Virus record (IMG/VR): IMGVR_UViG_3300025127_008157
Coordinates: 1 to 27,588 of that record
DNA from: a virus
DNA: 27,588 nucleotides
Strand: one strand, 5' to 3'
The notes under the pieces are model-generated. The model did not search any database and had not been told where the DNA came from. It worked only from the letters and a program-made list of their open reading frames with translations. The first letter of the stretch is position 1, and each line of letters starts with the position of its first letter. This document shows positions 1,038 to 22,907 of the stretch, piece by piece. Both the position numbers and the translations under genes were made by a program.

Positions 1038-1046
1038 TTAGTTTTC

Positions 1047-2492: not shown

Positions 2493-2500
2493 AATTGTAA

Positions 2501-6172: not shown

Positions 6173-6182
6173 CTAAAGATCC

Positions 6183-7764: not shown

Positions 7765-7927
7765 TTTCAACTATTCTTTTTAACTTGTCTCTAACAACTT
7801 GTAGCTTATCGACTGAATAAGCTTTATTCCAAAACTTCTTTTCGACATCATCTACTTCAAATTGCCTCAAAAATTTATCTAAAAAATTGTAGCATACAGT
7901 AACATCTTCTAGGTTTAAATCAACCAT
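7757..7927 (-). CDS. Small phage protein, unknown (56 aa)
   Basis: The likely start is the ATG at 7927, preceded by an AAGAAGAAG purine run and overlapping the stop of the upstream gene by 8 bases; a GTG at 7942 in the same frame would add five residues. The protein is short, helical and rich in Asp, Glu and Lys, with an aromatic-containing middle (FLDKFLRQF, KKFWNKAYSV). No motif is recognised. It lies in a run of four overlapping small genes between the sugar block and the late sigma factor. Confidence 0.6.
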   Translation of the reverse strand: MVDLNLEDVTVCYNFLDKFLRQFEVDDVEKKFWNKAYSVDKLQVVRDKLKRIVENA

Positions 7928-8102
7928 CTTCTTCTTCAACACCCAATTTTACAACAGGAGGGTTCATGACAAAAAGCTCTCCTTTGTCGCTAACCTTGAA
8001 ATTAAATCCTTTCAATACTGGCACAATATCACTTTGCTCAAGTAAAGATCTTTGTAGAGCCATCATTACTGCTCCAAGCGCTTCATCTGATAATCTTAAC
8101 AT
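7920..8102 (-). CDS. Small phage protein, unknown (60 aa)
   Basis: The gene starts in a TAATG overlap with the stop of the dehydrogenase-like gene, with AAAGGA suitably upstream, so translation is probably coupled. The protein has an amphipathic helix at residues 3-22 (LSDEALGAVMMALQRSLLEQ) followed by a short beta-like segment (FNFKVSDKGELFV) and an acidic end. It looks like a small folded protein, not a random frame, but I cannot assign a function. Confidence 0.65.
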   Translation of the reverse strand: MLRLSDEALGAVMMALQRSLLEQSDIVPVLKGFNFKVSDKGELFVMNPPVVKLGVEEEDG

Positions 8103-8929
8103 TATTTAATCCTTTTATCTCTTTGGGTGCTATTAAAGTTTATACTTTCTTTTAGCATGTTAAATAGAGTACCACAACTTTTTGCAAAATTTAATAATTC
8201 AATTGAATCTTTCGGTAAACATTTTCCTCCGTAACCAAACTTTCCATCCGGTCCAGGAACATAGGTATGTTGATCTCCGACCCATTCTGCACGTGCAAAA
8301 TGTTTTTGAAACATGTCATAATCTATTTGCTGTTGTTTACATAAATTATATAAATTATTACAGTAGCTAACTTTTACAGAATAAAATGTGTTTCTTGCTA
8401 ATTTTAACAATTCTATCTCTTTGTAATTCTGTGTTTCAAAATATTCTGCGTTGACATTATTGTGGTGCTTAAAAAACAGTTTATAAATAGCTTTCACTTT
8501 TTCTGTGTGTTTCGGCATACCAGCTAAGTATACCTCTTCTTGATTTATGAAATCTTCCATAGCAGTTCTTTGTGTGAGAAACTCAGGGTTAAAAACAATA
8601 TTTGGCAACTGAAAAGTACCTGATAGGTTATCGCATGCCCCAACTGGAAGTGTTGATTTTATTACTATAGTTGATGTATTTGAATTAGAAAAATTTTTAT
8701 AATCCTCCATACACTCTTCAACAATCGCTACATTTAAACGACCATCTAATAAATCAGTTGGAACATTAACAAATATAATATCTGCGTTATAGGCGTTTTC
8801 CTTGCTTTTAAGAGAGTTATGCTGCTTATTGCTAGGGTCATATATATATGTCGTTAAAACGTCTTTAAGCTGTGCTACAGCCTTGCCTACGAAGCCATAG
8901 CCGACGATGCCTATTGTTGATTTATCCAT
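8102..8929 (-). CDS. UDP-glucose/GDP-mannose 6-dehydrogenase-like protein, shortened
   Basis: The family oxidises C6 of a nucleotide sugar twice using NAD, giving a uronic acid. Here the NAD fold opens with GIVGYGFVGKA (Gly10, Gly12, Gly15). Further family landmarks are KSTLPVG (91-97), FNPEFL (113-118), a Lys/Asn pair in LLKLARNTFYS, and the active-site block FGYGGKCLPKD with catalytic Cys237. The usual enzyme has about 390-450 residues with a C-terminal nucleotide-binding domain; this protein ends at 275, just after the active site and dimer helix. It either works as a compact form, uses a partner, or binds another substrate. The active-site residues are intact, so it is not obviously decayed. 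It is the last sugar gene of the block and overlaps the upstream glycosyltransferase-like gene by 19 bases. Confidence 0.85.
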   Translation of the reverse strand: MDKSTIGIVGYGFVGKAVAQLKDVLTTYIYDPSNKQHNSLKSKENAYNADIIFVNVPTDLLDGRLNVAIVEECMEDYKNFSNSNTSTIVIKSTLPVGACDNLSGTFQLPNIVFNPEFLTQRTAMEDFINQEEVYLAGMPKHTEKVKAIYKLFFKHHNNVNAEYFETQNYKEIELLKLARNTFYSVKVSYCNNLYNLCKQQQIDYDMFQKHFARAEWVGDQHTYVPGPDGKFGYGGKCLPKDSIELLNFAKSCGTLFNMLKESINFNSTQRDKRIK

Positions 8930-9747
8930 TGTGTGTACCTGTCAAAAATATATTCTGGTGTGGGATGATATTGAAACTCATCTAAAAATAACACTGGGGT
9001 TGAGAGAGGGTTCCAATTATTTTCATAACGAGTAAGTGATAATTTACGATCTCCCCATACTAAATGCCGAGCCCCACAAAGACTAGATAAATGCATGGGA
9101 CCAGATGACGGACCAAAAACAGTTTTACAGTTTCTTAATATGTTGAACACTTCTTCTAACGGTTTGTCTCTAAGGTCGTCAGCTTCTGGAATTACTCCTG
9201 ATTCTTTTGTAGTTCCTACACATGCTACTCTCTCACCATTTTTAGTTAGTAACTTGTGTAGTTTTTTCCAATTATCTAAGCTCCAATTATCTTCTTTGCG
9301 CAAATCTCTATCTCTTATATGAAAAACATATTCGTATTGTAAATCTTGCTCTTGGCCAAATCTAATATATTTTGGTTTTATTATATAATCTTTAACTTTA
9401 ATTTGTTCAGAAAAATGAGTATTTGGAGGAAAACCAATTCGTCGTGGAGCAAAAATAGTTGTGCCTTTATCTAGTAGCGAATCATGCTTAAGCAAGACTT
9501 GTCTTGTATATACATTTAAATCAACACCATGCATAAAAAAAGAATCAGACAAGCCATTTGGTGGATCTAAATCTATAAACTTACTAGCAAAATCACTATA
9601 CAAAGCTTTAGAAGATGGCTTACATGCGATTACTGTTTCTTCAAAATTTTCAGCTAAAGCACGAACATACGCCTGCCAAGCAAAAAGCTCCCAACCAAAC
9701 TCTCCTATCCAAGGGCCGGCGATTAATCTTTTATTTAACTTGTTCAT
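8911..9747 (-). CDS. GT9/heptosyltransferase-like glycosyltransferase (278 aa)
   Basis: The N-terminus contains GPWIGEFGWELFAWQ and the C-terminal half contains HIRDRDLRKEDNWSLDNWKK and FGPSSGPMHLSSLCGA. The second pattern matches the nucleotide-sugar side of GT9 (ADP-heptose:LPS heptosyltransferase) enzymes, where GPxSGPxH sits in the donor site. The first half is divergent. Members transfer heptose or related sugars from an ADP- or GDP-linked donor. Length is slightly under the usual 320-350. The gene overlaps the previous one by 17 bases and the next by 19. With the heptose kinase and nucleotidyltransferase upstream, an ADP-heptose-type donor is a sensible guess, but donor and acceptor are not proven. 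Confidence 0.75.
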   Translation of the reverse strand: MNKLNKRLIAGPWIGEFGWELFAWQAYVRALAENFEETVIACKPSSKALYSDFASKFIDLDPPNGLSDSFFMHGVDLNVYTRQVLLKHDSLLDKGTTIFAPRRIGFPPNTHFSEQIKVKDYIIKPKYIRFGQEQDLQYEYVFHIRDRDLRKEDNWSLDNWKKLHKLLTKNGERVACVGTTKESGVIPEADDLRDKPLEEVFNILRNCKTVFGPSSGPMHLSSLCGARHLVWGDRKLSLTRYENNWNPLSTPVLFLDEFQYHPTPEYIFDRYTQWINQQ

Positions 9748-10600
9748 AAAAACTCACTATTTGTTTTGCCCAGCTTAATCGATTAAATTTTTGTACTTCT
9801 TTGTAACCTTTTTCAGCGATTTTTTTAGCCTCTTCAGGATTTTTTAGATAATAATTTATTTTTTGGTTTAGGTCTTCTGCATCTTTAAAAATAACGCAGT
9901 GCTCACCATCAATAAAAATATCTTCTCTGCCTGGCCAATCATCTGTGATTAAAAAACCTTTAGCAGCCATTATTTTATATACTCTATCAGATGCGCCATC
10001 CGAAGTACACATATTTAAATTAATTTTACTTTTTGAAACTTCTATTGAATGACTGTTAGAAAAAGCATTATTTATAACTTTTACTGGTACATCTAGTTTA
10101 GAAAGCAACTCTGCCCTGTTTCCATATATGTTGCCAATAAAGCTAGCATCATAAATTTGATCAACATCACGAGGCTTGTCAATAGTAGAATCAAACCCTT
10201 CACAAACATAAAAAGAGTTTTTGTTTATTTTAGTAGCATGCTCTAGTACATTTAACTTATCACAACAAAAGTAATGAACTAATTTAGTTTTATCTTTCAT
10301 TTCTTGATCATAATTTACCAACGCATCCATAAACCAAAGACAGGTGGTTGTTATATCACTAATTTTTTTAAAAACTTCTAAAGACACTACATTACATTTA
10401 CTAAAAACAACTAAATCAAATGCTCTTTGTTTGACCAAATAAACTAAATCTTTATCTCTGTATTCGTTGCCATGTATGGCTGCTTTTAGACGATAGTTAT
10501 AGCCTATAACATCATAACCTAAATCTTTGAAAGCAAATAATTGTGATAAATTAGTCGACTTACCTTCTTTGTCAAACACACCAACAAATAAAATTCTCAT
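9731..10600 (-). CDS. CgeB-like group 1 glycosyltransferase (289 aa)
   Basis: This is a GT-B type protein. It begins MRILFVGVFD with a Rossmann start and ends with the CgeB/glycosyltransferase group 1 arrangement: SKSKINLNMC (190-198), SDRVYKIMAAKGFLITDDWP (204-223), and EHCVIFKDAEDL (233-244), where a conserved Asp/Glu segment contacts the nucleotide sugar. CgeB-like proteins transfer sugars in spore coats, capsules and phages. The length is compact. The start at 10600 has a good AGAGG ribosome site four bases upstream. It is flanked by a radical SAM gene upstream (gap of 9 bases) and a GT9-like gene downstream. Donor and acceptor unknown. Confidence 0.75.
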   Translation of the reverse strand: MRILFVGVFDKEGKSTNLSQLFAFKDLGYDVIGYNYRLKAAIHGNEYRDKDLVYLVKQRAFDLVVFSKCNVVSLEVFKKISDITTTCLWFMDALVNYDQEMKDKTKLVHYFCCDKLNVLEHATKINKNSFYVCEGFDSTIDKPRDVDQIYDASFIGNIYGNRAELLSKLDVPVKVINNAFSNSHSIEVSKSKINLNMCTSDGASDRVYKIMAAKGFLITDDWPGREDIFIDGEHCVIFKDAEDLNQKINYYLKNPEEAKKIAEKGYKEVQKFNRLSWAKQIVSFYEQVK

Positions 10601-10609
10601 TCTGCCTCT

Positions 10610-11680
10610 CTAGATAAACTCATCGTTTACTTCAGGATTCTTAATTCTATTTAAATACTCGTTAATAATATGAGGTCGACACTTGTAGTTTCCACACGGC
10701 TCATGATTTAGCTTTGCTACTTTGTCAATTATTTTTTGTACTTGGCCACTAGTATGAATCTCTTCAAACGTCTGTTCATAGATATTTCCAAAGCTATAAT
10801 CTTTCTGATCATAGAATATATTACACCCATAACAACCGCCTTTAGCATCAATTAGTGTCAAAAAGTTATACGCATAACATTTTTTGTAACAGTAATTGTG
10901 GCTCTGACCAGGTATTTCTGGCATTTCCTCTAAATTTCTGCTTCTCACAGTTACGTAAAAATCATCCGTTGAGCGGTCTAGTAACCGCTGTCTTAGCTCA
11001 TTATCTGTTAAGCTATACAAAGTGGGGTTAGAGGCGCTTTTAGGATGATTGTGGTGTGGTTTAAACTGAACATTGTCAACGCCTACGTCTTTCATCAGAT
11101 CAGCGAATGCCTCCATTTCATGAATATTGTTTTCCATAACAATAAACTGCGCGCCAAGCTCAACATCTAGATTATGTTCTTTTTTGTACTTTGCTGCGGC
11201 GCGCATATTTCTTATAACACGATCAAAATCTTTTGATTTATGTATTTCACGATGTGTTTCTGCTGTAGCAGCATCGATACTAAACCTAATCCAAGCAAAG
11301 TAAGGCAAAAGCTGGTTTAAGCGTCTTTCATTTAATAAGCCACCATTGGTTGCCATGGACGTCTTGATGCCTCTACTGTGTGCAGCTTGAACAAACTTAT
11401 CCATATCTGGATGTAGTAGGGGCTCGCCTTCGCCAGCAAAGTATATTGATTTTACTCCAATATCTGCCATAGAATGTATGCCTCTAACTAAAACTTCTGT
11501 GTTTATCCTTACAACTCCGTGCGTAATCCAATCCACACTACAAAAGCTACAATGGTGCTGGCACCTGTTTGTTGGTCCGATCTCAACATGTAAAGGAGTC
11601 GCAGCCCCTGTTTTTTTCCAATGTGCTACCTCTTCTGGATAATACATTAATTTATGACTATCAACGTCTTTGATGCCCAT
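10610..11680 (-). CDS. Radical SAM protein with SPASM-like C-terminal cysteines
   Basis: Cys40, Cys44 and Cys47 form the CxxxCxxC that holds the SAM-binding 4Fe-4S cluster, followed by the FAGEGEPLLHPD segment that contacts SAM. After the TIM-barrel part, Cys264, Cys268, Cys283, Cys286, Cys329 and Cys334 make a second cysteine-rich region like SPASM or twitch domains, which bind auxiliary iron-sulfur clusters. Such enzymes modify peptides, sugars or aminoglycosides by radical chemistry. Within this operon a sugar-modifying reaction is plausible, for example on a 4-amino sugar as in the DesII deaminase, but a peptide-modifying or unrelated reaction cannot be excluded. It sits one base after the epimerase gene, whose last codons supply the GGGAG ribosome site. 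Confidence 0.85.
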   Translation of the reverse strand: MGIKDVDSHKLMYYPEEVAHWKKTGAATPLHVEIGPTNRCQHHCSFCSVDWITHGVVRINTEVLVRGIHSMADIGVKSIYFAGEGEPLLHPDMDKFVQAAHSRGIKTSMATNGGLLNERRLNQLLPYFAWIRFSIDAATAETHREIHKSKDFDRVIRNMRAAAKYKKEHNLDVELGAQFIVMENNIHEMEAFADLMKDVGVDNVQFKPHHNHPKSASNPTLYSLTDNELRQRLLDRSTDDFYVTVRSRNLEEMPEIPGQSHNYCYKKCYAYNFLTLIDAKGGCYGCNIFYDQKDYSFGNIYEQTFEEIHTSGQVQKIIDKVAKLNHEPCGNYKCRPHIINEYLNRIKNPEVNDEFI

Positions 11681-11681
11681 T

Positions 11682-12662
11682 TTATACTTCTCCCAGCCAA
11701 TACTCGACTAAATCTTTTAAAGTTTGTTCTATTGCTATAGATGGCTGCCAATTTAAAAAGTTTCTAACTTTTGTGTCATCTGGAATTTGAACCGGTATAT
11801 CAACTTTTCTAAAAAATTTAGGCTCTATCTCTAGCTTAACATCTTGTAAATTGTACATCTGTAGCATGCTATCTAGGTAGTACTGCATGGGATGTAAGTC
11901 GTTACCGGCAATATGAAATATTTCACCGCATTTTATATTGTCTTTATGAAACTCATTCATTAGTCTATAGTATACATCAACAACATCTCTAACATCAGCG
12001 ACAATTCTTTGTGACGTCATGTTACCGATTTTAATTACAGGCTCTTGTTGGCCCTTAATAATTTTAGCAATTTGGATTGCGTCTGATGATATAGAAAAAT
12101 TACTACCTCGACGTGGACCAGTGTGAGAAAAAGCCCTTGTTAGAAATGCTCTCAAGTCTGTATTGTGTGTTCTTTCTAAAACATACATATCAGCAACAGC
12201 TTTTGAAACACCATAAGGGTTATTAGGGTTGAACGGTGTAGTTTCATCAATTTTTGAATCAGCAGGACAGATACCATACACTTCTGGTGTTGAACAATTC
12301 ATCAGCACGCACAACGGCATGTTCTCAATAATCTCATCGCATATTCTAGCTGTGCCCAAGGCATTAGTTTTAGTTGCCAACAAAGGCGTTTTAAATGAAG
12401 ATGGTGGGTGAGCAAACGCCCCAAGATGAAACACTCCGTCAAACATATCATTTTCAAATATGTTTGTTATTGAGTCTAAATCTTCTAAATCACCATAAAC
12501 AAACTCAATTTTATTTAAATTTTCTTCTCCAACAATATTAACTATATCCCTACATGTGTCTAGGTTTCTTGCCATGGCAACAACTTCATCACCGCCTTCT
12601 AAAATTCTGTTAATCATATGCGGGCCAGCAAATCCTGTAGCACCAGTTACTAAATATCTCAT
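11682..12662 (-). CDS. NAD(P)-dependent sugar epimerase/dehydratase, GMD/RMD-like
   Basis: This is an extended short-chain dehydrogenase: cofactor motif GATGFAG (7-13), catalytic-type CSTPEVYG (123-130) with Thr125, and Tyr150/Lys154 in NPYGVSK. The segment RAFSHTGPRRG (176-186) resembles that of GDP-mannose 4,6-dehydratases and GDP-4-keto-6-deoxymannose reductases more than other branches. Those enzymes make or reduce the 4-keto-6-deoxy intermediate that a DegT aminotransferase can use. The length of 326 is normal. It shares an ATGA overlap with the aminotransferase gene, indicating coupled translation. The exact nucleotide sugar cannot be told from sequence alone. Confidence 0.85.
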   Translation of the reverse strand: MRYLVTGATGFAGPHMINRILEGGDEVVAMARNLDTCRDIVNIVGEENLNKIEFVYGDLEDLDSITNIFENDMFDGVFHLGAFAHPPSSFKTPLLATKTNALGTARICDEIIENMPLCVLMNCSTPEVYGICPADSKIDETTPFNPNNPYGVSKAVADMYVLERTHNTDLRAFLTRAFSHTGPRRGSNFSISSDAIQIAKIIKGQQEPVIKIGNMTSQRIVADVRDVVDVYYRLMNEFHKDNIKCGEIFHIAGNDLHPMQYYLDSMLQMYNLQDVKLEIEPKFFRKVDIPVQIPDDTKVRNFLNWQPSIAIEQTLKDLVEYWLGEV

Positions 12663-13612
12663 TGTAAATCCTTTAATTTTTCTACTATAAAATGTATGTC
12701 TGCCTTATTAACATCAGGACCAACTGGTAAATACATAATTTTTTTAGACATCTCATAACTTTTTGTTTGAGATACATCTAATAAAAATGGTGCGCATGAA
12801 CCAACAGGCTTAAACCCGTATCTCGCAGCTATATTTTGTTTTCTTAAATCGTCGACAATTTTATTATTATCTACTTTAATATCATAGACCCATGGCACAT
12901 CTCTTCTAGGCATGTGATATTTTTTAGCTATTAGCGAATCATATAAAGATTCGTTTTGTCGTCTTATTTTTATATTTTTATCTATCTCGCCTAAAGAATC
13001 AATTATTAAAGATGCCTGTGAATTAGTCATTCTGTAATTAAACCCGATTCGTTTATGCATGTAATTGTGCTCTTCCCCAAAAGACATACTTTTCATGTCT
13101 TTTACAATTTTTAAAAATTCTAAATCATCAGAAACAATGGCGCCGCCCTCTTCTCCACAAACTATTTTATTTCTATAAAAAGAGAAGCAACCTATATCAT
13201 AGCTTCCAACCATTTTATTGCCCCATTTACATCCATGTGCTTCAGCCGCATCTTCAATAATACGCAAATTATATTTTTTAGCTAGTTCAGAGACTGCGTC
13301 CATATTTACAACCCTTCCATAAACATGTGTGACCATGATAACTTTTGTTTTATATGTTATCTTTTTTTCTAGATCAATCAAGTCGATAAGTAGATCATCA
13401 CTGCAGTCAACGAATACCGGGTTAAGACGAGCATAATAAACCGCCCAAGCAGTAGCAATCATAGTAAATTGTGGTACAATAATTTCAGAATCTTTAGGAA
13501 GTTGAAGCGCTTCTAGAGCTAGATGAAGAGCGGCAGTGCCAGAGTTGACCGAAACACACCCTTCGGTACCTATATATTTTGAAAATTTGTTCTCTAACTC
13601 TTCAAATTTCAT
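12659..13612 (-). CDS. DegT/DnrJ/EryC1-type PLP sugar aminotransferase
   Basis: The protein has the DegT pattern: SVNSGTAALHLALEAL near the N-terminus, IIVPQFTMIATAWAV, EDAAEAHG (Glu120-Asp121, where the Asp contacts the PLP ring nitrogen) and CFSFYRNKIVCGEEGG with the PLP-binding Lys149. These enzymes place an amino group on a keto sugar-nucleotide, usually at C3 or C4. At 317 residues it is shorter than the usual 360-400. I chose the ATG at 13612 because it overlaps the stop of the upstream epimerase in TAATG; an ATG four codons earlier at 13624 is possible. Its neighbours are two dehydratase-type genes and a formyltransferase, which fits a 4-keto to 4-amino to 4-formamido sequence. Confidence 0.9.
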   Translation of the reverse strand: MKFEELENKFSKYIGTEGCVSVNSGTAALHLALEALQLPKDSEIIVPQFTMIATAWAVYYARLNPVFVDCSDDLLIDLIDLEKKITYKTKVIMVTHVYGRVVNMDAVSELAKKYNLRIIEDAAEAHGCKWGNKMVGSYDIGCFSFYRNKIVCGEEGGAIVSDDLEFLKIVKDMKSMSFGEEHNYMHKRIGFNYRMTNSQASLIIDSLGEIDKNIKIRRQNESLYDSLIAKKYHMPRRDVPWVYDIKVDNNKIVDDLRKQNIAARYGFKPVGSCAPFLLDVSQTKSYEMSKKIMYLPVGPDVNKADIHFIVEKLKDLQ

Positions 13613-14565
13613 TACCAATCCCATTCACTATTATTAGAGTAATAGTAATCTATTGTTTTCTTTAGGGCGTTTTCTAGAGATGTTGGTGTCTTTTTCCCGA
13701 TCGCATTATATAATTTTGTGTTATCAGACTGGAGATGCCAAATCTCCCATGGTCTTGCTCTTTTCTCATCAGTTTGTATTTCTACATTTTTATGGCCCAT
13801 TAGCTTGCCGATAAGTCTAGCAAGATCATAAATTTTTATACCACCTTCGCTTCCCATGTTGTAAACTTCGCCAAATTGACCTTTTTCTAAAAGCTCTACT
13901 GCCATACGTACAGCATCACCAGAATATTGAAAATCTCTAAACGAATTATTTCCTAATTTAATTACGCTTGTTTTATCTAGCTGACTAATAATTTCAGGAA
14001 TAACATATGCGTGCGTTTCTCTCTCACCAACACAATTAAATTGCCTCATTGCGATAGCAGGAACACCGGCCTCTCTCCAGCGAACCTGTACTAAACCATC
14101 AGCAGCTAGCTTGCTGACTCCATATGTAGAGTGCGCTGCGACAGGATCAGATTCAGATATCTTGCCTTTCATATCGCCATAGATTTCAGCAGAGGAAACC
14201 TGTAGCAATCCTTTTATATTTGCTTTTTGACATGCGTTAAGTACTCTTAAAACAGCCGTAGCATTAATATCAAAAAAATGCATTGGTCTTTCAAAGCATT
14301 CTGGAATGTATGGCTCAGCAGCATAATTAAAAACATACTCAATATCATGACTTATTAATATTTTTGCCAGTTCGTTTTCATCATCACGAATGTCAAACCA
14401 TATAAACTTTGCTTTTTCATGAATGTGTTTTTTAAGTCCCGTAATCAGATTGTCTAGCACAACAATATTACAATTACGATCATTAATTAAATGATCGACT
14501 AAGTGTGAGCCTAGAAACCCAGCACCACCAATAACACAGACATTAACATTTTCTATAGTTCTCAT
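13612..14565 (-). CDS. NAD-dependent sugar epimerase/dehydratase (UDP- or dTDP-sugar type)
   Basis: The cofactor motif GGAGFLG (13-19), the acidic residue at the end of the second strand (VVLDNL), QVSSAEIYG (122-130) and the catalytic pair Tyr148/Lys152 in TYGVSK define an extended short-chain dehydrogenase. The set resembles dTDP-glucose 4,6-dehydratases, UDP-glucuronate decarboxylases and UDP-GlcNAc/glucose epimerases; RQFNCVGERE is the substrate-side loop. Length 317 is normal. It begins 2 bases after the formyltransferase stop with AGAGGAA as ribosome site. It likely supplies one of the two keto or epimerised sugar-nucleotides of the block; which one is unknown. Confidence 0.85.
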   Translation of the reverse strand: MRTIENVNVCVIGGAGFLGSHLVDHLINDRNCNIVVLDNLITGLKKHIHEKAKFIWFDIRDDENELAKILISHDIEYVFNYAAEPYIPECFERPMHFFDINATAVLRVLNACQKANIKGLLQVSSAEIYGDMKGKISESDPVAAHSTYGVSKLAADGLVQVRWREAGVPAIAMRQFNCVGERETHAYVIPEIISQLDKTSVIKLGNNSFRDFQYSGDAVRMAVELLEKGQFGEVYNMGSEGGIKIYDLARLIGKLMGHKNVEIQTDEKRARPWEIWHLQSDNTKLYNAIGKKTPTSLENALKKTIDYYYSNNSEWDW

Positions 14566-14567
14566 TA

Positions 14568-15170
14568 TTATTCCTCTTTGTAATCAATATATATTTTTTT
14601 ACCTTTGTTGTTAAAGTAATATAATTGGTCTTTGCCTGGAAAATAAAAAGCTTTAACAAACCTAGTTAAATTTCTTGCCTTTTGTAGGTCTTTTTTCAAA
14701 TAACATTTACCTACATTTTTTCTTTGAGGTGTGGCAATATAGTCCTCAAATAGTAAATCACTATACCAATCTTTAAACATTTTAAAGATTATTTTTACGC
14801 CTTTTTCGTACAAGGAAAAAGCAGTGTCATGTTTAGATATCAAAAATTCTCTAATTTCAATAATATCTCCCGTATCAACACCCTGGTCAATCAAATGTAA
14901 AGTAATACCAAATTTGCTTTCTTGATTCAACAAAGCCCAAGTACATATTCCACTTCCTTTATACTCAGGCAACACGCCAGGATGAAAATTGTAACATTTT
15001 TTGCTTTTTAATATGTCAGCAGAAATTATTTTTTCATACATAACAGACAAAACGATGTCAGCTTCTTGCAAGCTATTAACCAACACAAAACCACTAGGAG
15101 TATTGTTGCGTGCCCACAGAATACATTGCTCACCGACTTCTCTAGATGTTGCTATAAAAACTTTTTTCAA
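14568..15170 (-). CDS. Formyltransferase, probably sugar N-formyltransferase
   Basis: This 200-residue protein keeps the catalytic part of the methionyl-tRNA formyltransferase/GART family: NFHPGVLPEYKGSGICTWAL with Asn61 and His63, then HLIDQGVDTGDII (92-104), whose aspartates complete the Asn-His-Asp site that moves the formyl group from N10-formyltetrahydrofolate. The N-terminal Rossmann part is reduced and the C-terminal tRNA-binding domain of Fmt is absent, so initiator tRNA is an unlikely substrate. With an aminotransferase next door, formylation of an amino-deoxy sugar is the best reading. The start codon is TTG at 15170, supported by AGGAG 8 bases upstream inside the end of the previous gene. 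Small size is shared by some phage and O-antigen enzymes. Confidence 0.85.
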   Translation of the reverse strand: MKKVFIATSREVGEQCILWARNNTPSGFVLVNSLQEADIVLSVMYEKIISADILKSKKCYNFHPGVLPEYKGSGICTWALLNQESKFGITLHLIDQGVDTGDIIEIREFLISKHDTAFSLYEKGVKIIFKMFKDWYSDLLFEDYIATPQRKNVGKCYLKKDLQKARNLTRFVKAFYFPGKDQLYYFNNKGKKIYIDYKEE

Positions 15171-15172
15171 TC

Positions 15173-16039
15173 TTATTGCTCCTGTAAATAATTTAAACGC
15201 TCAATCATAAATTTAACATTATCTTCTATCGTAGGATGCTGCTTACAAAAGTTTTCACATTCACTAATATCTAATTGTGGAGTATTATCCCATGTTTCTT
15301 TAATCACACGCTTAAAGTCTTCATAGCTATCATCACTAAAATATATGGCTCTGTCACCTAAATAATCTCTAGCACCCTCGTACACAGAGTCGCTAATAAC
15401 AGAAGCTTTTCCTAGCTTGTAACCTTCTAAAAGGCCCAAACCGCCAGTTGAAGTTTCATGATAATCTGTACACATAAAACTACATTCTGCTATGAGTTTG
15501 CGATATTGTTCTTCTGAAGCTCCATGATTTGGTGTTTTTAAAGGTATATCTAGTTCTTGACATGCTCTTTCAAGCCATCCATAGTTTTTGTCTGCTACAT
15601 AAGGCCTTATTGTTTTAAGAATATATCTATCATCTTTTATTTCATTATTATAGTCGAAAAATCTAGCCCACATTTTCATAAGCTTACACTTTTTAATATC
15701 GATGCCTTCTTCGCCCATTCTGATAATTACTTCATTTGAAATACACCACAACTCTTTACATTTTTTTAAATAATCTTTATACAATTGCCAATTATAACCA
15801 TGAGGGTTTGGAGCTGTCCATACTGTTTTATAAAAGTCTAACGTCAGACTTACAATTGGAATGCCTGGAAATGTACCATGGAACATGTGTACAAGCTCTA
15901 ACCCAGCTTGAGTTGTCATTAAAATAAAATCAGTATCCGGATGAATTCCATTATGATCTACTTTAACACCCTTAGATTCAAATACAGGTATAAGCGGTTC
16001 TACGTTTTGCGATGGGGGAGTTACGATAGATATTCTCAT
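15173..16039 (-). CDS. GT4-like glycosyltransferase (288 aa)
   Basis: The protein is a GT-B candidate. It begins MRISIVTPPS, has an acceptor-side half with HMFHGTFPGIPIVSLTLDFY, and a donor-side half with STGGLGLLEGYKLGKASVIS and GDRAIYFSDDSYEDFKRV, matching the ExxxxGxP and loading-loop region of group 1 glycosyltransferases in reduced form. No membrane segment is present, so it would be cytoplasmic. An ATGA overlap and AGAGGAA upstream link it to the GT9-like gene before it. Donor and acceptor are unknown; the assignment rests on the C-terminal half. Confidence 0.7.
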   Translation of the reverse strand: MRISIVTPPSQNVEPLIPVFESKGVKVDHNGIHPDTDFILMTTQAGLELVHMFHGTFPGIPIVSLTLDFYKTVWTAPNPHGYNWQLYKDYLKKCKELWCISNEVIIRMGEEGIDIKKCKLMKMWARFFDYNNEIKDDRYILKTIRPYVADKNYGWLERACQELDIPLKTPNHGASEEQYRKLIAECSFMCTDYHETSTGGLGLLEGYKLGKASVISDSVYEGARDYLGDRAIYFSDDSYEDFKRVIKETWDNTPQLDISECENFCKQHPTIEDNVKFMIERLNYLQEQ

Positions 16040-16926
16040 TTTGTTTCCTCTAGTTTTTTGTCAATGTTATGTATTATAAGATCCATATCAATAAAATTAG
16101 CAGTTTGTCCTTCTAAATATACAGCATTGGGATTGACCGGTTGCCAGTTTTTTGTTGTGTCAACCAAGGGATCATAAGCTGTTGAATATAAGCCAACCGT
16201 GGGGTGGTTAAAGGCAGAAGCAACCCATGGCATGCCAGAATCACAAGTTACAAGAAGGTCTGTGCTTAGCATCTTTTTACAGCTGTCAAAATACGTACCC
16301 CTCACAAAAGTAGTGTTTCTAATATGAGGCTGGTGCGGACCAGACAATTGATATACTTTATAACCTTTTTGACATAAATACTTTGCTATGTACTCTTGTT
16401 TTTTTATATTAACAGATCGTGTTCCGCCAGGCCATTTACTAGAAAATAAATGAATGGCAACTGTCTTTGGTTCTTTAACAACATCTTCTGGCATCTTTAA
16501 TTCTATTTTATTTGTCGATGCTTCCACACCTAACATAAGTGCGGTTTCCTCAACAAGGTGTCGATGCTTAGCCCAATCACTTTGTTCATGATACGGTTTT
16601 TCAAAAGGAAACATAGCATCAAAGCTTTGTTGCTTTATATAATCTAGATCTGATTGTGTTGGCCAATCATCATATCCTTGCCACACTTTAAAATCAATAA
16701 TATTTTTATGATAGTTATAAAAAAGAGGTTGAATATCTTTGTACTTGTCGCAAATAGCAAGAACAATTTTAGTTTCAGGATTATCTTCAATAAACTTTCT
16801 TAGGCCGGGTTCCTGCATGATGATATCACCATATTGACCACCCATGCCAAAGCATACTTTATCGTAAGGAGGCTGTCTATTTTCATACTTAAATTTATCT
16901 AAATTTAGTTTTGAATTAATACTCAT
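16036..16926 (-). CDS. GT9-like glycosyltransferase (296 aa)
   Basis: It carries the two halves of heptosyltransferase-like enzymes: VCFGMGGQYGDIIMQEPGLR near the N-terminus, like the GxGDxI start of GT9, and VAIHLFSSKWPGGTRS plus LLVTCDSGMPWVASAFNHPT toward the C-terminus, where GT9 members have TxDSGxxHxAAA. Here Trp replaces the usual His in that motif. The family moves heptose from ADP-heptose onto LPS core. It begins immediately after the cupin gene stop (TAAATG) with an AAAGGAG site. Its position beside the heptose kinase, nucleotidyltransferase, phosphatase and cupin supports a heptose-like donor. Confidence 0.78.
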   Translation of the reverse strand: MSINSKLNLDKFKYENRQPPYDKVCFGMGGQYGDIIMQEPGLRKFIEDNPETKIVLAICDKYKDIQPLFYNYHKNIIDFKVWQGYDDWPTQSDLDYIKQQSFDAMFPFEKPYHEQSDWAKHRHLVEETALMLGVEASTNKIELKMPEDVVKEPKTVAIHLFSSKWPGGTRSVNIKKQEYIAKYLCQKGYKVYQLSGPHQPHIRNTTFVRGTYFDSCKKMLSTDLLVTCDSGMPWVASAFNHPTVGLYSTAYDPLVDTTKNWQPVNPNAVYLEGQTANFIDMDLIIHNIDKKLEETK

Positions 16927-17286
16927 TTAATCTCCTTTTTCAATTCTGTATGAATCACTATCAAAATGTTGTGTTGAAAATTCAAACAACTCTGTATCTT
17001 CAAGTGCTATCATTTGATGTCGAAGCCCAACATAAACATGAAAGTTGTCGCCTCGCTCTAATATAACTTCAGAAGCATTGTTTAAATCGTCATCGTCTGA
17101 ATACTTTACCATAATTTTGCCAGACTGTATATAGAACACTTCATCTTTTATTTTGTGATAATGCCAAGAGCATTTTTTACCTTTGACAAAATATAAAAGC
17201 TTTCCACAATATTTGTCGTTATTAACAATCCACTTTTCAAAGCCCCAGCCTTTAGGAACAAAGTTCATTTTTAAAGAATTCTTCAT
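16927..17286 (-). CDS. Single-domain cupin, sugar-phosphate isomerase type
   Basis: Cupin motif 1 is complete: Gly36, His42, His44, Glu49, Gly56. Motif 2 (GDNFHVYVGLRHQ) gives Gly79 and His90, so four metal ligands are visible. The WGFEKWIVNNDKYCGKLLYF lead-in resembles the cupin part of mannose-6-phosphate isomerase/mannose-1-phosphate guanylyltransferase proteins, and such single cupins are often found in surface-sugar clusters. It probably isomerises or binds a sugar phosphate; the reaction is not proven. I chose the ATG at 17286, giving 119 residues, because AAAGGA stands 9 bases before it; a longer frame to 17346 has no ribosome site and would cut far into the HAD gene. It overlaps that gene by 35 bases. 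Confidence 0.8.
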   Translation of the reverse strand: MKNSLKMNFVPKGWGFEKWIVNNDKYCGKLLYFVKGKKCSWHYHKIKDEVFYIQSGKIMVKYSDDDDLNNASEVILERGDNFHVYVGLRHQMIALEDTELFEFSTQHFDSDSYRIEKGD

Positions 17287-17584
17287 CTTTGCTTCCTTTA
17301 TCGTCAACGTATATATCGCCGGCTGGCTTACCAAGATACAAAGCATGAAATTTTACACCCCAGTTAGTCAGTTGTTCGTGTGTAAGACTCCAAAACTCTG
17401 CTTCAGCTAGAGATATATTATTTTTAAATCTACCCATTCCTCTAGCTGTGTGAAAAATTATCTTATTGCCTTCTTCATATAAAGAATTTATTTTTTCTAT
17501 TCTTTCTTTTATTGGAACAGCCTTGTTATATTCTCCATTTGTTAAAGAGCAAATAGTGCCGTCGATATCAAACACGTAAGTCAT
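17252..17584 (-). CDS. Small HAD-family phosphatase
   Basis: HAD motifs are all present in a 110-residue core: DIDGT with nucleophile Asp6 and acid/base Asp8, FHTAR (Thr46), GKPAGD (Lys86) and IYVDD (Asp94, Asp95). There is almost no cap domain, as in small capsule- and LPS-cluster phosphatases, and it lacks the Cys-rich zinc loop of GmhB. In a heptose pathway it may take the bisphosphate to the monophosphate, standing in for GmhB, or it may act on another sugar phosphate. The ATG has a perfect AAGGAGG ribosome site and lies 17 bases inside the end of the kinase gene, tying the two together. Confidence 0.85.
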   Translation of the reverse strand: MTYVFDIDGTICSLTNGEYNKAVPIKERIEKINSLYEEGNKIIFHTARGMGRFKNNISLAEAEFWSLTHEQLTNWGVKFHALYLGKPAGDIYVDDKGSKDEEFFKNELCS

Positions 17585-18338
17585 CTATATCCTCCTTAGT
17601 CAAAGTATAGGTACCAAACTTTTGTACTGCTAATCGAGCACACTTGTTGGCAAAATCAATTGATTTTTCAAAACATCTTGTATGTAAATACTTAAACACT
17701 AAAGCTGCCATAAAAGTATCACCTGCGCCGCAGACATCGAACACATCACAACGTTCTGTTGAGAATGTTTTGTTATTCCACAACGCACCGTCGGCACCTT
17801 TAGTTACAATTAGCTGGTAAGTGTTTGGAAACACTTTAGACTTTTCATATTCAGATTGATTAATTTTGATAATACAATCTTCAAATATGCTTAAATCAGT
17901 TTTTTTAGAATCTACAAAAACAGTAACGTTGCTAGCTTTTGCTTTGGATAAGATAATTTTTACATTAGTGCTATCTATAAAGCCTTTATCGTAGTCTGAT
18001 ATAACAACTGCGTCCAAATCAGAAAATTTAATTTTTTCTAACTGTGTCTTAGTACAAGGCTCAAGCTTTAAATTTTCACCAAAATCTGTTCTTAAAAGAT
18101 GTTGTCTTGTTTTTAAATCAACAAATCTTTCTTTTCTAATAATTTTTTTATTTGTGATAGAGTCAACAGACAGACTAAACGCTATTAAATTATTGCGCAC
18201 GTTTAAGCTCATTCCATCTCTATTTTCTGTATGGTCATGCTTTAAAACTGGCACGGGAGCTTCTGGACTTAACCTATCACAGTGTCCATAATGATAAACG
18301 TCTAGACAAGCATCTCCAACTAAAAGTACATTAAACAT
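17568..18338 (-). CDS. PfkB-family kinase, HldE/RfaE N-terminal (heptose-7-phosphate kinase) type
   Basis: The stretch RLSPEAPVPVLK (22-33) is the RfaE signature. Other landmarks are VISDYDKGFI (112-121), VTKGADGALW (178-187) and CGAGDTFMAAL (203-213) with the catalytic Asp207 of the PfkB family. HldE-type kinases phosphorylate heptose 7-phosphate at C1 on the way to ADP-heptose. The protein is only 256 residues, against about 320 for HldA-type kinases. Compared with the family, the GGAANVA block is replaced by DGMSLNV and about 40 residues of the lid region following it are missing. Catalytic residues are intact, so it may be a compact active form with altered substrate range. It is followed by the phosphatase and preceded by the nucleotidyltransferase. 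Confidence 0.85.
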   Translation of the reverse strand: MFNVLLVGDACLDVYHYGHCDRLSPEAPVPVLKHDHTENRDGMSLNVRNNLIAFSLSVDSITNKKIIRKERFVDLKTRQHLLRTDFGENLKLEPCTKTQLEKIKFSDLDAVVISDYDKGFIDSTNVKIILSKAKASNVTVFVDSKKTDLSIFEDCIIKINQSEYEKSKVFPNTYQLIVTKGADGALWNNKTFSTERCDVFDVCGAGDTFMAALVFKYLHTRCFEKSIDFANKCARLAVQKFGTYTLTKEDIDDLRV

Positions 18339-18348
18339 TGTTATTTTC

Positions 18349-18732
18349 TTAAGCCTTTAAAACTTTGCTAGTTGAATATCCTTCTACAAAATTGAATATT
18401 CTTACCTCAGCGATATCATGACCAACAACATCTTCTTTTCTGTAGTCACCGCCTTTAACAATTATATCAGGCTTCAATTGTTTAATTAAATTATAAGGTG
18501 TTTTTTCATCAAAAATTATAACACGATCAACATATTTACAGCACTCTAAAGCATATTTTCTATCGCATTGCTTAAAGAAAGGCCTATTATCACCTTTTAA
18601 ATCTTTAACGCTTCTATCACTATTCAGGCCTACAACAACTGTTGATCCTTGACTTTTACAAAATTCAAGAAGTTTAAAGTGACCTTTATGTAATATATCA
18701 AAACAACCATTTGTAAAAACTAATTTAGACAT
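18349..18732 (-). CDS. Nucleotidyltransferase, HldE/RfaE C-terminal (heptose-1-phosphate adenylyltransferase) type
   Basis: The 127-residue protein is a complete small cytidylyltransferase-like domain: FTNGCFDILHKGHFKLL with the HxGH pair His15/His18, VVGLNSDRSVKDLKG, KGGDYRKEDVVG and a final GYSTSKVL in place of the YSTT motif. In E. coli this domain is fused to the kinase as HldE; here it is a separate gene, as in HldC-type organisms. It would join a sugar 1-phosphate to AMP to give ADP-heptose; glycerol-3-phosphate cytidylyltransferase is a related alternative, but the neighbouring RfaE-type kinase favours heptose. A weak AGG site precedes the ATG, with a 21-base gap from the upstream gene. 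Confidence 0.85.
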   Translation of the reverse strand: MSKLVFTNGCFDILHKGHFKLLEFCKSQGSTVVVGLNSDRSVKDLKGDNRPFFKQCDRKYALECCKYVDRVIIFDEKTPYNLIKQLKPDIIVKGGDYRKEDVVGHDIAEVRIFNFVEGYSTSKVLKA

Positions 18733-18753
18733 TAGTAACCTATAAAATTCACT

Positions 18754-19608
18754 TTAGGTTCCAACACACAATGTTTTAAACATGCTAAGAGCCTTATGAG
18801 TTCTGCTCTGTAACTCTTCTAACAAAAAGTCGCCAGAAAGATTAAATAATTCTTTTTCGCTGTACATGCCAATCAAGCCTGGTTTTGTCAGCACTTGGCA
18901 ATTTAATATTTTTGACTCTGCTACCAGGCGACAAAATGTTTCTAAAACTTGTGGCATGAATAATATCTTTTCGTATTGAGATACGTTTAATAAAAAGTCG
19001 TTTGGCTGGGCTGGCTCAATTAAAGAATATCTCATATTTTTCATTTCACAATACCTTACAGCCTCCGCAGTACCCTTTGTAGGGTTTTTAGAATTTACAA
19101 TTCCTAAGCTTTTTGTTTTTTTATTATTTAAATTATTTCGTAAAAAAGAAAACTTTTTGTCAGTCCACAAGCTGGTTCCAATACTAATAACATTAGATAT
19201 GTTTAAGTTATCTTCTAATACTTGTCGACAAATTTCACTTAAAACAACAATTTTATTAGAACTTTTATAAAAATCAATATTAGCTAAATGTTCGTGTGGT
19301 ATTTTAAAATTTAAATATTTTGACGGATCTCGATTTGCTACATACTTGTGATCATGCTCATAAATAATATAGTTATTATTTTGAATCATATATCGCTTAC
19401 ACTCTTCAGTAAGGCCAATAAAATTGCCAACTATAAAAACACTATCTTTGTTTTTATGTAGTAGTTCAATACTACAAGCTGATGAGTGAACTTTAGCTAC
19501 ACACAAGTTATTATTCTTTAAATATGATATTAGAACTGAATCATTTGATTCTGCACCTCCCAGCAAATCATCACTAAAAAAATCAGCTATAAAAATTACA
19601 TTTTTCAT
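18754..19608 (-). CDS. GT4-like glycosyltransferase (284 aa), divergent
   Basis: The N-terminus MKNVIFIADFFSDDLLGGAE carries the GGxE turn common in GT4 acceptor domains. The C-terminal part LGIVNSKNPTKGTAEAVRYC and MPQVLETFCRLVAESKILNC matches the P-x-x-E-x-F-x-x-x-x-x-E pattern of GT4 donor sites. It is short, and the usual long donor domain is trimmed. It overlaps the preceding GT4 gene by an ATGA. The evidence is reasonable but not strong; a glycosyltransferase-fold protein with another role is possible. Confidence 0.65.
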   Translation of the reverse strand: MKNVIFIADFFSDDLLGGAESNDSVLISYLKNNNLCVAKVHSSACSIELLHKNKDSVFIVGNFIGLTEECKRYMIQNNNYIIYEHDHKYVANRDPSKYLNFKIPHEHLANIDFYKSSNKIVVLSEICRQVLEDNLNISNVISIGTSLWTDKKFSFLRNNLNNKKTKSLGIVNSKNPTKGTAEAVRYCEMKNMRYSLIEPAQPNDFLLNVSQYEKILFMPQVLETFCRLVAESKILNCQVLTKPGLIGMYSEKELFNLSGDFLLEELQSRTHKALSMFKTLCVGT

Positions 19609-20879
19609 ATAATTTCAATTTCATTTAGCTTTTCAAGCCACTCTTTTCTTTCTGCTAGCCCTTTTTCTTCAGCGATTGCTTCTAGCTGATCAGTGTATTG
19701 TTTATAAATCTTTGAAGCTTCAAAATCTTCGCAAACCCAATCTTGTAGTTTTTTAGCTCTCTTTTTAAATCTTCCATAATCTCTGTAAACTTCATCTAAA
19801 TTCATTTTAATTGAGCCATCTTCTGGAAAAGCCCACATAGAATCTTGTACAATCACATCCTTCCAAAGTACCTCAGCTGGCACAGGTCTTAAACTATAAG
19901 ATATTCGCGAAAACATGTGCTTCTTTTTGTACTTGCCATTTTTTTGTTTTTCTTTCATATACAAAAAATCTAGATGACCAGACCAATCAGTTGCTATAAC
20001 TGGCAGGCCATAATATGCTGCTTCAAACAAGGGCAAACCATAGCCCTCGCCATGAGTAGTAGAAACTAAAGCTTTAACTTTTGAGTGCGTATACAAGCCG
20101 GCCATTTGCTTATCTGACAAATATCCGTGTAGAAGATAAACTTTACATTTTTTTTCTCCAGCTTTTTGAACTGCTTGGTTAAACAACCCTCTAGTCATAA
20201 AACGATCTGGAATAGAGTTTTTAACTGAGTTGGCTTTAACGATTAATCCAACATTCTCATTATCTCTAAATTTATCGATAAAATTTAAAATAAGCTGTTC
20301 AGCATTTTTTCTCGGACTTAACTGAGCAACTGCTAAAAAATTAAAATCAGTTTCTAAATCTAGATCTAAATTTTCAGGTTCTGCTTTTACAACTGGATAG
20401 TGGATGTAGTCAATTTGTGTTTGTACTCTATAGTCAACTTTTTCACCAGTGTCTGTATTTGTAGCTTCGTACACTGTATTTACATAGCTGTCTCTAGAAA
20501 ACTCACTGATGGTTAAAATTTTATCCATGATAAAAGATTTTTCAATCCACACTGGAGCAACTTTAGTAGTCTCGATACCAGCGGTAACACCAATGTTAAC
20601 CTCAGCAATCTTTTCCCACTCATTAGGAATTGTTACTTGTAAAGACATATCGAAAGTACCACCTTCACTAGCGTAACCTAATGTTTTCTTTACGCATGAA
20701 TCAATCCACTGTCTTTCTTCATTATCTTCCCAAATCCAACTAGTCTGTCCCCAAACTATTGGCTGGATGTAAATATCAAAAAGATCTTCTTTTGTGCGCA
20801 AAGCGCGTAGAACAGTTCTCGCATGATGACCATAGCCAGTCTGTGTTAACAGAGGGCCTTTCAATAATACCTTTATCAT
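19605..20879 (-). CDS. GT4 family glycosyltransferase (424 aa)
   Basis: A full-length GT-B enzyme. The start MIKVLLKGPLLTQTGYGHHA has the Gly-rich loop of the acceptor half; FLAVAQLSPRKNAEQLILNF (181-200) is the inter-domain strand that begins the donor half; LLHGYLSD (249-256) and THGEGYGLPLFEAAYYGLPV (275-294) give the Ex7E pair Glu278 and Glu286. These retaining enzymes use nucleotide-diphosphate sugars. A TAATG overlap ties it to the preceding GT4 gene, which is its likely partner in building the same glycan. Confidence 0.88.
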   Translation of the reverse strand: MIKVLLKGPLLTQTGYGHHARTVLRALRTKEDLFDIYIQPIVWGQTSWIWEDNEERQWIDSCVKKTLGYASEGGTFDMSLQVTIPNEWEKIAEVNIGVTAGIETTKVAPVWIEKSFIMDKILTISEFSRDSYVNTVYEATNTDTGEKVDYRVQTQIDYIHYPVVKAEPENLDLDLETDFNFLAVAQLSPRKNAEQLILNFIDKFRDNENVGLIVKANSVKNSIPDRFMTRGLFNQAVQKAGEKKCKVYLLHGYLSDKQMAGLYTHSKVKALVSTTHGEGYGLPLFEAAYYGLPVIATDWSGHLDFLYMKEKQKNGKYKKKHMFSRISYSLRPVPAEVLWKDVIVQDSMWAFPEDGSIKMNLDEVYRDYGRFKKRAKKLQDWVCEDFEASKIYKQYTDQLEAIAEEKGLAERKEWLEKLNEIEII

Positions 20880-22132
20880 TATTTAACCTCTAGTAGTTGC
20901 CAAGTTTTATAATTTTTACGAGTTTCCCAAGAGCCAAGATTCTCATGAATACTTAAAAGACATTTTTCCCATCTTTCTATGTATTTGTCAAAACTATAAT
21001 TATTTTTAACATGTTCTGCGCCGGCAGAGCCTAGAGATTTTCTTTCTTCTGATGACATCTCATACATTTTTAATAATGCATTTAAAAGATCTTCGTTATC
21101 AAAATGGTCTTCATAAATGTAAGGTACATTTTGAGATCCGATAACAGGCTTTGCTTTACATTCCAAGCCAATGCCAAACCAATTTTTGCCATCAGTAACC
21201 TGCTCTTGTAAGCCGCCTGTCATATTAACGATAATTGGTGTCTCGCATGAAAGAGACTCTAACGTTGCCAAGCCAAAACCTTCTGCGTCAGAAACATTAA
21301 CAGTCACATCTGCCATGTTGTACATAACGGCTAAATCATGAAATTCAACTTTTTGAGTTGAAAACCTAACTTCGCCATTTGTTAAACCTAAATCTGCGAT
21401 GTTTGCAATAAGGTCCGGCCCATTAGGGTCTTTTGGCTCTGTATGCATCACCAAGCATGCTTTATCATGTCCAACCTTGTCTAAAAACTGTTTAAATACA
21501 TGAATTAACGTGGCTGGTTGTTTTCTTTTAGCATTTCTATTATTCCAGAATACAACAAATTTATCATCTAAACCTTTTTGCTTTCTAAAATTTTGAACTT
21601 GTTCTTCTGGCAAAGGCCTAAAAAATGTTGGATTTACAGCATGAGGAAGATACTCACACCGCACATCAGGCGACACATTTTTTACAATGTCATAAGTGAC
21701 TTTCGAAATACACGCCACATGATCACATGAGTCATACCATACTTTATTAAACTTAGGATAAGGATAATTATCCCAAACATGGTAATATACCATTGGAATT
21801 AAAGATCTAATCTCGTCTTCAATCTCCCAAAGCCAACCATAAAATCTAGGATCAGTCATAAACCAAAGCATATCTGGTTTTTCAGTTCTGATCAAAGATC
21901 TAATCATATCTTGACTACCATATCCATCAACTGGATACATAATTAGATCATCTCCCCATTTCTCAGTTTTTTGAGGATTGTAATCATGATGCTTAATAGC
22001 GCCAGCCAAGCATAAGAACTTAAACTTTCCAGTTTGTAACATGCCTTCTATCATGTAGCGTGTTTGTGTACCCACGCCAGAAGGGGAAAAAGGATGGTCT
22101 GAAATAACCAAAACTTTAATTTTTTTACTCAT
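20879..22132 (-). CDS. GT4 family glycosyltransferase (417 aa)
   Basis: A full-length GT-B enzyme and the first gene of the sugar block. VLVISDHPFSPSGVGTQTRY (8-27) is the acceptor-side Gly-rich loop, FVVFWNNRNAKRKQPATLIH (192-211) opens the donor half, and SDAEGFGLATLESLSCETPI (281-300) holds the Ex7E pair Glu284 and Glu292. ELLEVK-type basic ending follows a helix. The ATG is preceded by AGG. It lies only 6 bases after the nuclease gene, so the sugar block is joined to the replication-type genes upstream without a visible promoter or terminator between them. Confidence 0.88.
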   Translation of the reverse strand: MSKKIKVLVISDHPFSPSGVGTQTRYMIEGMLQTGKFKFLCLAGAIKHHDYNPQKTEKWGDDLIMYPVDGYGSQDMIRSLIRTEKPDMLWFMTDPRFYGWLWEIEDEIRSLIPMVYYHVWDNYPYPKFNKVWYDSCDHVACISKVTYDIVKNVSPDVRCEYLPHAVNPTFFRPLPEEQVQNFRKQKGLDDKFVVFWNNRNAKRKQPATLIHVFKQFLDKVGHDKACLVMHTEPKDPNGPDLIANIADLGLTNGEVRFSTQKVEFHDLAVMYNMADVTVNVSDAEGFGLATLESLSCETPIIVNMTGGLQEQVTDGKNWFGIGLECKAKPVIGSQNVPYIYEDHFDNEDLLNALLKMYEMSSEERKSLGSAGAEHVKNNYSFDKYIERWEKCLLSIHENLGSWETRKNYKTWQLLEVK

Positions 22133-22906: not shown

Positions 22907-22907
22907 G

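Follow-up and report, generated by a model that had tools for sequence, protein, structure and literature searches.

Phage-borne sugar clusters as such are already known. The cyanophage P-SSM2 carries 24 lipopolysaccharide (LPS) genes in two clusters (PMC2984593), cyanophage clusters hold epimerases, cupin isomerases, PfkB kinases, nucleotidyltransferases and glycosyltransferases (GTs) with polymorphic content (PMC7824862), and T4-like marine pelagimyophages possess a host recognition cluster, a hypervariable island with many GTs and tail fiber genes located between VrlC and gp14 (PMC7029224). Such clusters are commonly taken to remodel the host surface, a view that is itself largely inferred. 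Here, we analyze a sugar-gene block within the 27,588-base linear IMG/VR virus record IMGVR_UViG_3300025127_008157 (the whole stretch is referred to as the window). Its positions 8102-22132 hold an unbroken series of 17 minus-strand open reading frames (ORFs), nearly all encoding sugar enzymes, which very probably constitute an exchangeable glycan island at a fixed site.

GT4A and gp55 served as queries against viral contigs to find relatives. Both island edges were present in 42 contigs, from which the stretch between the PD-(D/E)XK nuclease gene (PDDEXK) and gp55 was extracted, giving 43 islands with the window. These are not all independent, as G021/G028 and G034/G035 are near-identical pairs. 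The genes that frame the island in the window are as follows.

22139-22942, minus strand: PD-(D/E)XK nuclease, conserved left border gene (PF12705; in 43/43 islands)
20879-22132, minus strand: GT4A, conserved anchor GT (PF00534; phrog_2170)
19605-20879, minus strand: GT4B, second conserved anchor GT (PF00534; present in islands)
7920-8102, minus strand: conserved 60-amino-acid gene, right island border (homolog in 77 loci, mostly at the island edge)
6461-7183, minus strand: gp55-like late sigma factor, right flank (phrog_234; 54-85% identity in relatives, one distant at 34%)

The order across relatives is PDDEXK, GT4A, GT4B, a variable part, and then usually the 60-amino-acid gene, a zinc ribbon, a small membrane gene and gp55; the small genes near gp55 are reduced in the distant G030, and the simple ORF caller missed one or other of them in some islands. 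Over the 43 islands, the variable part held between 0 and 30 genes, counting those of 90 amino acids upward; it is empty in the near-complete relative G041, which possesses GT4A and GT4B alone, with syntenic flanks. Proteins of the variable parts form many clusters, mostly singletons, and the commonest Pfam families in a random sample of 110 such proteins were sugar SDRs, DegT, UGDH, PfkB, glycosyltransferase and methyltransferase.

The flanks of G016 and G032 share 92.8% nucleotide identity over the left 3.3 kb and 90.6% over the right 1.5 kb, and their GT4A proteins are 99% identical. The ~13.7 kb between these flanks were unaligned except for one 93-base match, and zero island genes were in common at 50% identity. 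Gene sharing was uncorrelated with relatedness when 703 island pairs, which are not independent of one another, were compared by shared-gene fraction and gp55 identity (Spearman -0.016). G034/G035 carry the cassette of the window too, up to 83-84% identical, with gp55, GT4A and PDDEXK there at 55-61%. Together, the G016/G032 swap and the presence of the window cassette in the diverged G034/G035 indicate that cassettes move between phages and that whole islands are replaced, probably via homologous recombination in the conserved flanks. The sequences show GT4A and GT4B staying beside the nuclease, with everything between GT4B and the small genes preceding gp55 replaced wholesale.

Several details accompany this pattern. 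The island break between G016 and G032 falls inside the GT4B gene, and GT4B of 11 islands (e.g., L127 2129-4150) has an extra C-terminal domain of ~240 amino acids that is GT2-like by eye. At the DegT position, G034 encodes a short, different DegT. Among the further products of the G034/G035 island are a class II aldolase, a transaldolase and a fusion of RpiB with a nucleotidyltransferase (L168 (G034) 4197-7745); it may build its own sugar phosphates, and the transaldolase might act in making sugars instead of in the pentose phosphate pathway.

A preceding sequence-only reading of the window had described a phage-borne, single functional block of fifteen genes between replication-type and late structural genes. 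Phage flanks and recurring borders support the first part, and the placement is fair, with PIN-PhoH and the PD-(D/E)XK nuclease upstream and the gp55-like late sigma factor followed by large proteins downstream. The latter had no family match in our searches and appear tail/baseplate-like from their size, position and sequence. The continuous minus-strand run and the named families were borne out as well; the gene count was wrong, the enzymes listed in that reading themselves summing to 17. Nor do most genes overlap by 1-40 bases, as had been stated: overlaps occur at only about half of the 16 junctions, where they measure 1 to 19 bases, with the cupin/HAD pair reaching 95 bases when the long cupin start is used (this overlap shrinks if the cupin begins at an internal ATG, as its homologs do), and the remaining junctions have gaps of 0-21 bases. 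The reading had named two findings that would speak against it. One, an assembly chimera, is ruled out, as the same borders recur in 42 other IMG/VR contigs and the inner cassette is contiguous again in G034/G035. The other, these genes lying scattered and unlinked in relatives, was sought and not seen in the 43 islands. A series of 17 co-oriented genes, nearly all for sugar enzymes, whose borders are repeated across 42 further contigs is far from anything expected by chance.

As to the kin of the block elsewhere, blastn against phages returned no match, and a scan of bacterial genomes with the dehydratase gave no relative. A scan of bacterial genomes with the cupin alignment returned scattered loci, many of them in contigs of marine metagenome-assembled genomes (MAGs), and no host can therefore be named from it. 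Among marine MAG contigs, L187, L188, L189, L192 and L214 (labeled archaeal, planctomycete or Rhodobacteraceae) carry the nucleotidyltransferase-kinase-HAD-cupin quartet in the same order, at 42-64% identity, and may be phage contigs binned into MAGs.

The near-complete relatives G038 and G041 share the major capsid protein (gp23), portal, terminase, prohead protease, sheath, tube and ribonucleotide reductase with Rhodothermus phage RM378, at ~22-51% identity per segment; the likeness was tested on these two genomes, the window itself being without these genes. Judged by such relatives, the window phage would belong to the marine Far-T4-like lineage (RM378 group). RM378 was the sole Far-T4 isolate as of a 2020 description, and Bacteroidetes are the predicted hosts of marine Far-T4-like phages (PMC7198788). 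The GT4A-GT4B pair is present in RM378, and Flavobacterium phage vB_FspM_immuto and Microcystis phage Mel-JY01 each have homologs of PDDEXK, GT4A and GT4B, ordered as in the window. As in the window, the anchor genes of the latter two phages are followed by other sugar or GT genes; the cargo differs, however, the anchors are 28-34% identical, and Mel-JY01 has a GuaB-like gene separating PDDEXK from GT4A, the latter being annotated as two pieces. A literature search of incomplete coverage found no description of such an island in Far-T4 phages.

Families were assigned to the block proteins via Pfam, PHROGs, NCBIfam, PDB matches, hhalign and Foldseek on predicted structures. Seven GTs had been proposed, of which four are supported by Pfam and two by structure; the seventh (15173-16039) is without family, profile or structural support. 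Besides the anchor pair, the candidates are as follows.

18754-19608, minus strand: GTe, GT4-type GT-B glycosyltransferase (predicted structure pLDDT 95.6; Foldseek to GT4 enzymes, E 1e-7)
16036-16926, minus strand: GT9-like, heptosyltransferase-type GT (PF01075 just under cut-off)
15173-16039, minus strand: GTc, GT-like, unconfirmed (ETSTGGLGLLE-type motif only)
9731-10600, minus strand: GTb, GT-B glycosyltransferase (PF13524, E 1.5e-21)
8911-9747, minus strand: GTa, heptosyltransferase-fold GT (model pLDDT 75, moderate confidence)

In GT4A, the EX7E and R/K residues are invariant across 22 homologs, RM378, immuto and Mel-JY01 included; profiles of GT4A and GT4B gave no match against the PDB (1e-20 and 1e-10). 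GTe did not match in a profile comparison with GT4A, and its identity as a GT is settled by its predicted structure. GTc likewise had no family match and no profile match to GT4A, and has a 65% identical homolog in G034. The GT9-like protein matched the profile of E. coli WaaC/WaaF/WaaU (hhalign 94%, E 1.4e-7). For GTa, Foldseek ranked WaaC and TibC, both ADP-heptose enzymes, highest (best E 1.5e-6), and hhalign gave 90% to the Waa set. TibC heptosylates a protein.

The remaining ten genes of the block encode mainly predicted sugar-activating and sugar-modifying enzymes.

18349-18732, minus strand: HldE-type nucleotidyltransferase, separate gene (TIGR02199, E 4e-45, under curated cut-off; phrog_7878)
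17568-18338, minus strand: HldE-type PfkB kinase, separate gene (PF00294; TIGR02198, E 6e-43, under cut-off)
17252-17584, minus strand: HAD phosphatase, EcbF/BcbF-like (TIGR01689, E 2e-12, under cut-off; DIDGT motif; phrog_1238)
16927-17346, minus strand: cupin, start probably internal (PF07883; invariant residues across 17 homologs)
14568-15170, minus strand: sugar N-formyltransferase, PseJ-sized (PF00551)
13612-14565, minus strand: SDR2, nucleotide-sugar epimerase/dehydratase (PF01370, PF16363; PDB matches)
12659-13624, minus strand: DegT sugar aminotransferase (PF01041, E 1.6e-76)
11682-12662, minus strand: SDR closest to GDP-D-glycero-D-manno-heptose 4,6-dehydratase (7us5, E 8e-57)
10610-11680, minus strand: radical SAM/SPASM enzyme (PF04055, PF13186)
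8102-8929, minus strand: UGDH-like dehydrogenase without C-terminal domain (PF03721, PF00984; phrog_9148)

The SDR at 11682-12662 matched the heptose enzyme 7us5 far better than GDP-mannose 4,6-dehydratase (E 8e-57 vs 5e-29), which by sequence places it with DmhA-type enzymes. The best PDB matches of the DegT protein are a sugar aminotransferase and perosamine synthetases, and those of the formyltransferase are formyl-transferring enzymes whose substrates are nucleotide sugars (E 2.5e-19). The radical SAM/SPASM enzyme had no NCBIfam equivalog above cut-off. The UGDH-like protein, already recognized as such, is just 275 amino acids long, its C-terminal domain missing. Our guess for the cupin is a sugar isomerase or epimerase, a role previously proposed for cupins in phage clusters (PMC7824862). 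Two database labels are probably wrong: "phosphoheptose isomerase" for phrog_1238, whose member at 17252-17584 is a HAD phosphatase with DIDGT, and "cysteine dioxygenase" for phrog_7851, whose member at 16927-17346 is a cupin traveling with sugar cassettes.

The proposal that the block forms a single pathway is strengthened for part of it, namely heptose activation, 4,6-dehydration, amination and N-formylation. Judging from the enzyme families, kinase, phosphatase and nucleotidyltransferase would activate a heptose-like sugar, which would then be 4,6-dehydrated, aminated and N-formylated. With HldE-type kinase and nucleotidyltransferase, HAD phosphatase, heptose-dehydratase-like SDR, DegT and N-formyltransferase together, the simplest reading of the product would be an NDP-4-formamido-4,6-dideoxyheptose or a close analog, used by the heptosyltransferase-fold enzymes. 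Two such enzymes and the GT4-type enzymes would add heptose-like and other sugars to a growing oligosaccharide. Whether the cassette yields a heptose-type product at all is, in our judgment, evenly balanced. Several observations weigh against it. No GmhA isomerase or HldD epimerase gene was recognized in the window (SDR2, at 97.5 bits, falls short of the NCBIfam heptose-epimerase cut-off of 274.6); the host may supply GmhA. TIGR02198 and TIGR02199 are the best families for the kinase and nucleotidyltransferase, yet both matches, like that of the HAD phosphatase, fall under the curated NCBIfam cut-offs. Finally, the nucleotides disagree: GDP-heptose is the substrate of the enzyme that the dehydratase matches best in the PDB, whereas the kinase/nucleotidyltransferase pair is of the ADP-heptose type.

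With respect to the site of glycan assembly, no more than two membrane segments were called in any of the 1,008 island ORFs, although the threshold was permissive; applied to E. coli K-12 as a positive control, this rule flagged Wzx, Wzy and WcaJ. A priming phosphoglycosyltransferase (PF02397) was likewise not found in the 43 contigs. The Wzx/Wzy-dependent O-antigen export route was thus rejected as a candidate, neither flippase nor polymerase nor priming transferase having been found. Because no island encodes a membrane protein for priming, flipping or polymerization, the whole sugar assembly would be cytosolic, and the glycan chemistry must end there: on a virion protein, the LPS core, or DNA.

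The likely start of the transcription unit lies in the upstream flank.

25552-25563 (scan reports near 25563-25564), minus strand: promoter-like motif AACTATTTATTA upstream of PhoH (14.3 bits)
24166-25473, minus strand: PIN-PhoH, upstream flank (PF02562, PF13638; phrog_2765)

The underlying motif, AACTATTTA, was learnt from G038 and G041, where it is enriched upstream of genes, tail tube and sheath included; the remaining relatives served as a check. It occurred upstream of PhoH in 24/31 relatives and upstream of the gene adjoining the baseplate genes in 29/54, each compared with 1% of random windows, and in 0 tested cases upstream of PDDEXK (n=3), GT4A, GT4B, the 60-amino-acid gene and gp55 (n=11). 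This distribution suggests that the island is probably transcribed from the PhoH promoter as the candidate start of a unit running through it, and AACTATTTA may represent a promoter class of this phage group. Two other candidates were rejected: the T4-type late promoter TATAAATA was barely above chance (112 vs 95 expected), and a sigma-70 promoter scan was little above shuffles.

Elsewhere in the flanks, a trypsin-like protease with a lipoprotein-like signal (25507-26217, plus strand) is the sole large plus-strand gene, divergent from PhoH and kept beside it in relatives, and 26991-27067 (minus strand) encodes a tRNA-Ile with anticodon TAT, an uncommon route to reading AUA. The large proteins at 3-6172 are 28-39% identical to those of G038, whereas gp55 and PhoH are 84% and 76% identical, a disparity that points to rapid evolution or recombination on the tail side.

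The acceptor is the least certain step. In the proposed model, GT4A and GT4B would start on a phage-made acceptor, and island swaps would thus change the sugar coat of the particle. Such an acceptor, most likely a virion protein, is tentatively and only slightly favored, because the GT4 pair is kept in phages of hosts with different envelopes, is retained even without sugar genes, and because tail genes and the PhoH-headed unit have a promoter-like motif in common. Doubtful by comparison is the broader proposal that PDDEXK-GT4A-GT4B is a fixed initiating module of virion glycosylation in phages infecting Bacteroidota, cyanobacteria and marine hosts not yet in culture, with islands conferring particle serotypes as O-antigen islands do for bacteria. 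Some points weigh against a virion acceptor: no test linked any virion protein to the island, the pair could owe its retention to activity on a glycan widespread among hosts, and the PhoH-headed unit also encodes gp55, expected to act before late genes, the motif not being proven late.

Close behind, and a serious if less than probable possibility, is that phage enzymes rebuild the host surface by extending the LPS core or lipooligosaccharide in the cytosol, with the host exporting the product, so as to block superinfecting phages or grazers. LPS is where ADP-heptose, heptosyltransferases and N-formyl amino sugars are typically met, which speaks for this possibility and against a virion acceptor. 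The waa genes of E. coli are a precedent, since the core is extended without a dedicated flippase and host export is enough; LPS-core genes are also without membrane proteins, so the missing Wzx/Wzy is compatible with a host-surface target. Diversity island by island fits phage-phage competition, and the literature interprets the clusters of P-SSM2 and pelagimyophages as host-surface modification (PMC2984593, PMC7824862, PMC7029224). Yet GT4A and GT4B are conserved across differing host envelopes and kept where the sugar genes are gone, the motif is common to tail genes, and with neither phosphoglycosyltransferase nor polytopic membrane protein the full O-antigen route is out unless the host supplies it.

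Placement of glycans on phage DNA against restriction, in the manner of T-even phages, is very unlikely. Phage GTs can modify DNA, and T4 alpha-glucosyltransferase is one of many GT-B enzymes that GTe resembles in fold, but the thymidylate synthase/hydroxymethylase family (PF00303) was not found in the 43 contigs (two of ~181 and 186 kb, several fragments), so the usual hydroxymethyl handle is missing, and big swaps of rare-sugar enzymes are unexpected for DNA masking. A small sugar-derived molecule, which the radical SAM enzyme, cupin and other modifying enzymes and the secondary-metabolite reading of a second cyanophage cluster (PMC7824862) would accommodate, or a transient mosaic without selected function is just as improbable, given that most recognized enzymes are GTs or nucleotide-sugar enzymes, that the ORFs are intact, and that the cassette is up to 84% identical in another lineage.

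Should the favored particle be the acceptor, marine phages would have exchangeable sugar coats. The fixed site, the two-GT form, the natural whole-island swap and two cultured phages with the anchor genes make the glycosylation target directly testable. To our knowledge, mycobacteriophages have no rare-sugar pathway island of such size. Their virions nonetheless provide a precedent for the favored acceptor, with glycans reported on capsid and tail tube subunits (Freeman et al. 2023, cited in PMC12619734).

A gene set for both making and transferring activated sugars is less unusual than the sequence-only reading held, as cyanophages, beginning with P-SSM2, have yielded published examples of complete clusters of this kind (PMC2984593, PMC7824862), and so have pelagimyophages (PMC7029224). 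Like P-SSM2, the window combines nucleotide-sugar enzymes and GTs in a phage genome. The cyanophages P-SSM2 (Prochlorococcus) and S-CAM1 and S-CAM3 (Synechococcus) have epimerases, HldE-type kinase, nucleotidyltransferase, HAD phosphatase and cupin as in the window, and P-SSM2 genes 309-312 form the nucleotidyltransferase-kinase-HAD-cupin quartet in the same order; the kinase is 43-46% identical to those of cyanophages and the cupin 59% to that of P-SSM2. The cyanophage quartet, however, sits in the tail fiber region, whereas the window block lies between PDDEXK-GT4A-GT4B and gp55, with no recognized tail fiber genes. The pelagimyophage cluster is similarly a hypervariable, GT-rich island of T4-like marine phages; its position between VrlC and gp14 differs from the PDDEXK and gp55 flanks of the window, and the accessible part of its description reports no conserved edge GT pair (PMC7029224). 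Bacterial O-antigen and capsule loci share conserved flanks and wholesale exchange of sugar genes between close relatives, whereas the window island is without a recognized Wzx, Wzy or priming transferase. What is new in the window lineage is thus the fixed site of wholesale exchange, the conserved GT4 anchor, the lack of recognized tail fiber genes, the absent membrane step and the two-GT minimal form, in a lineage and at a site different from those of the known clusters.

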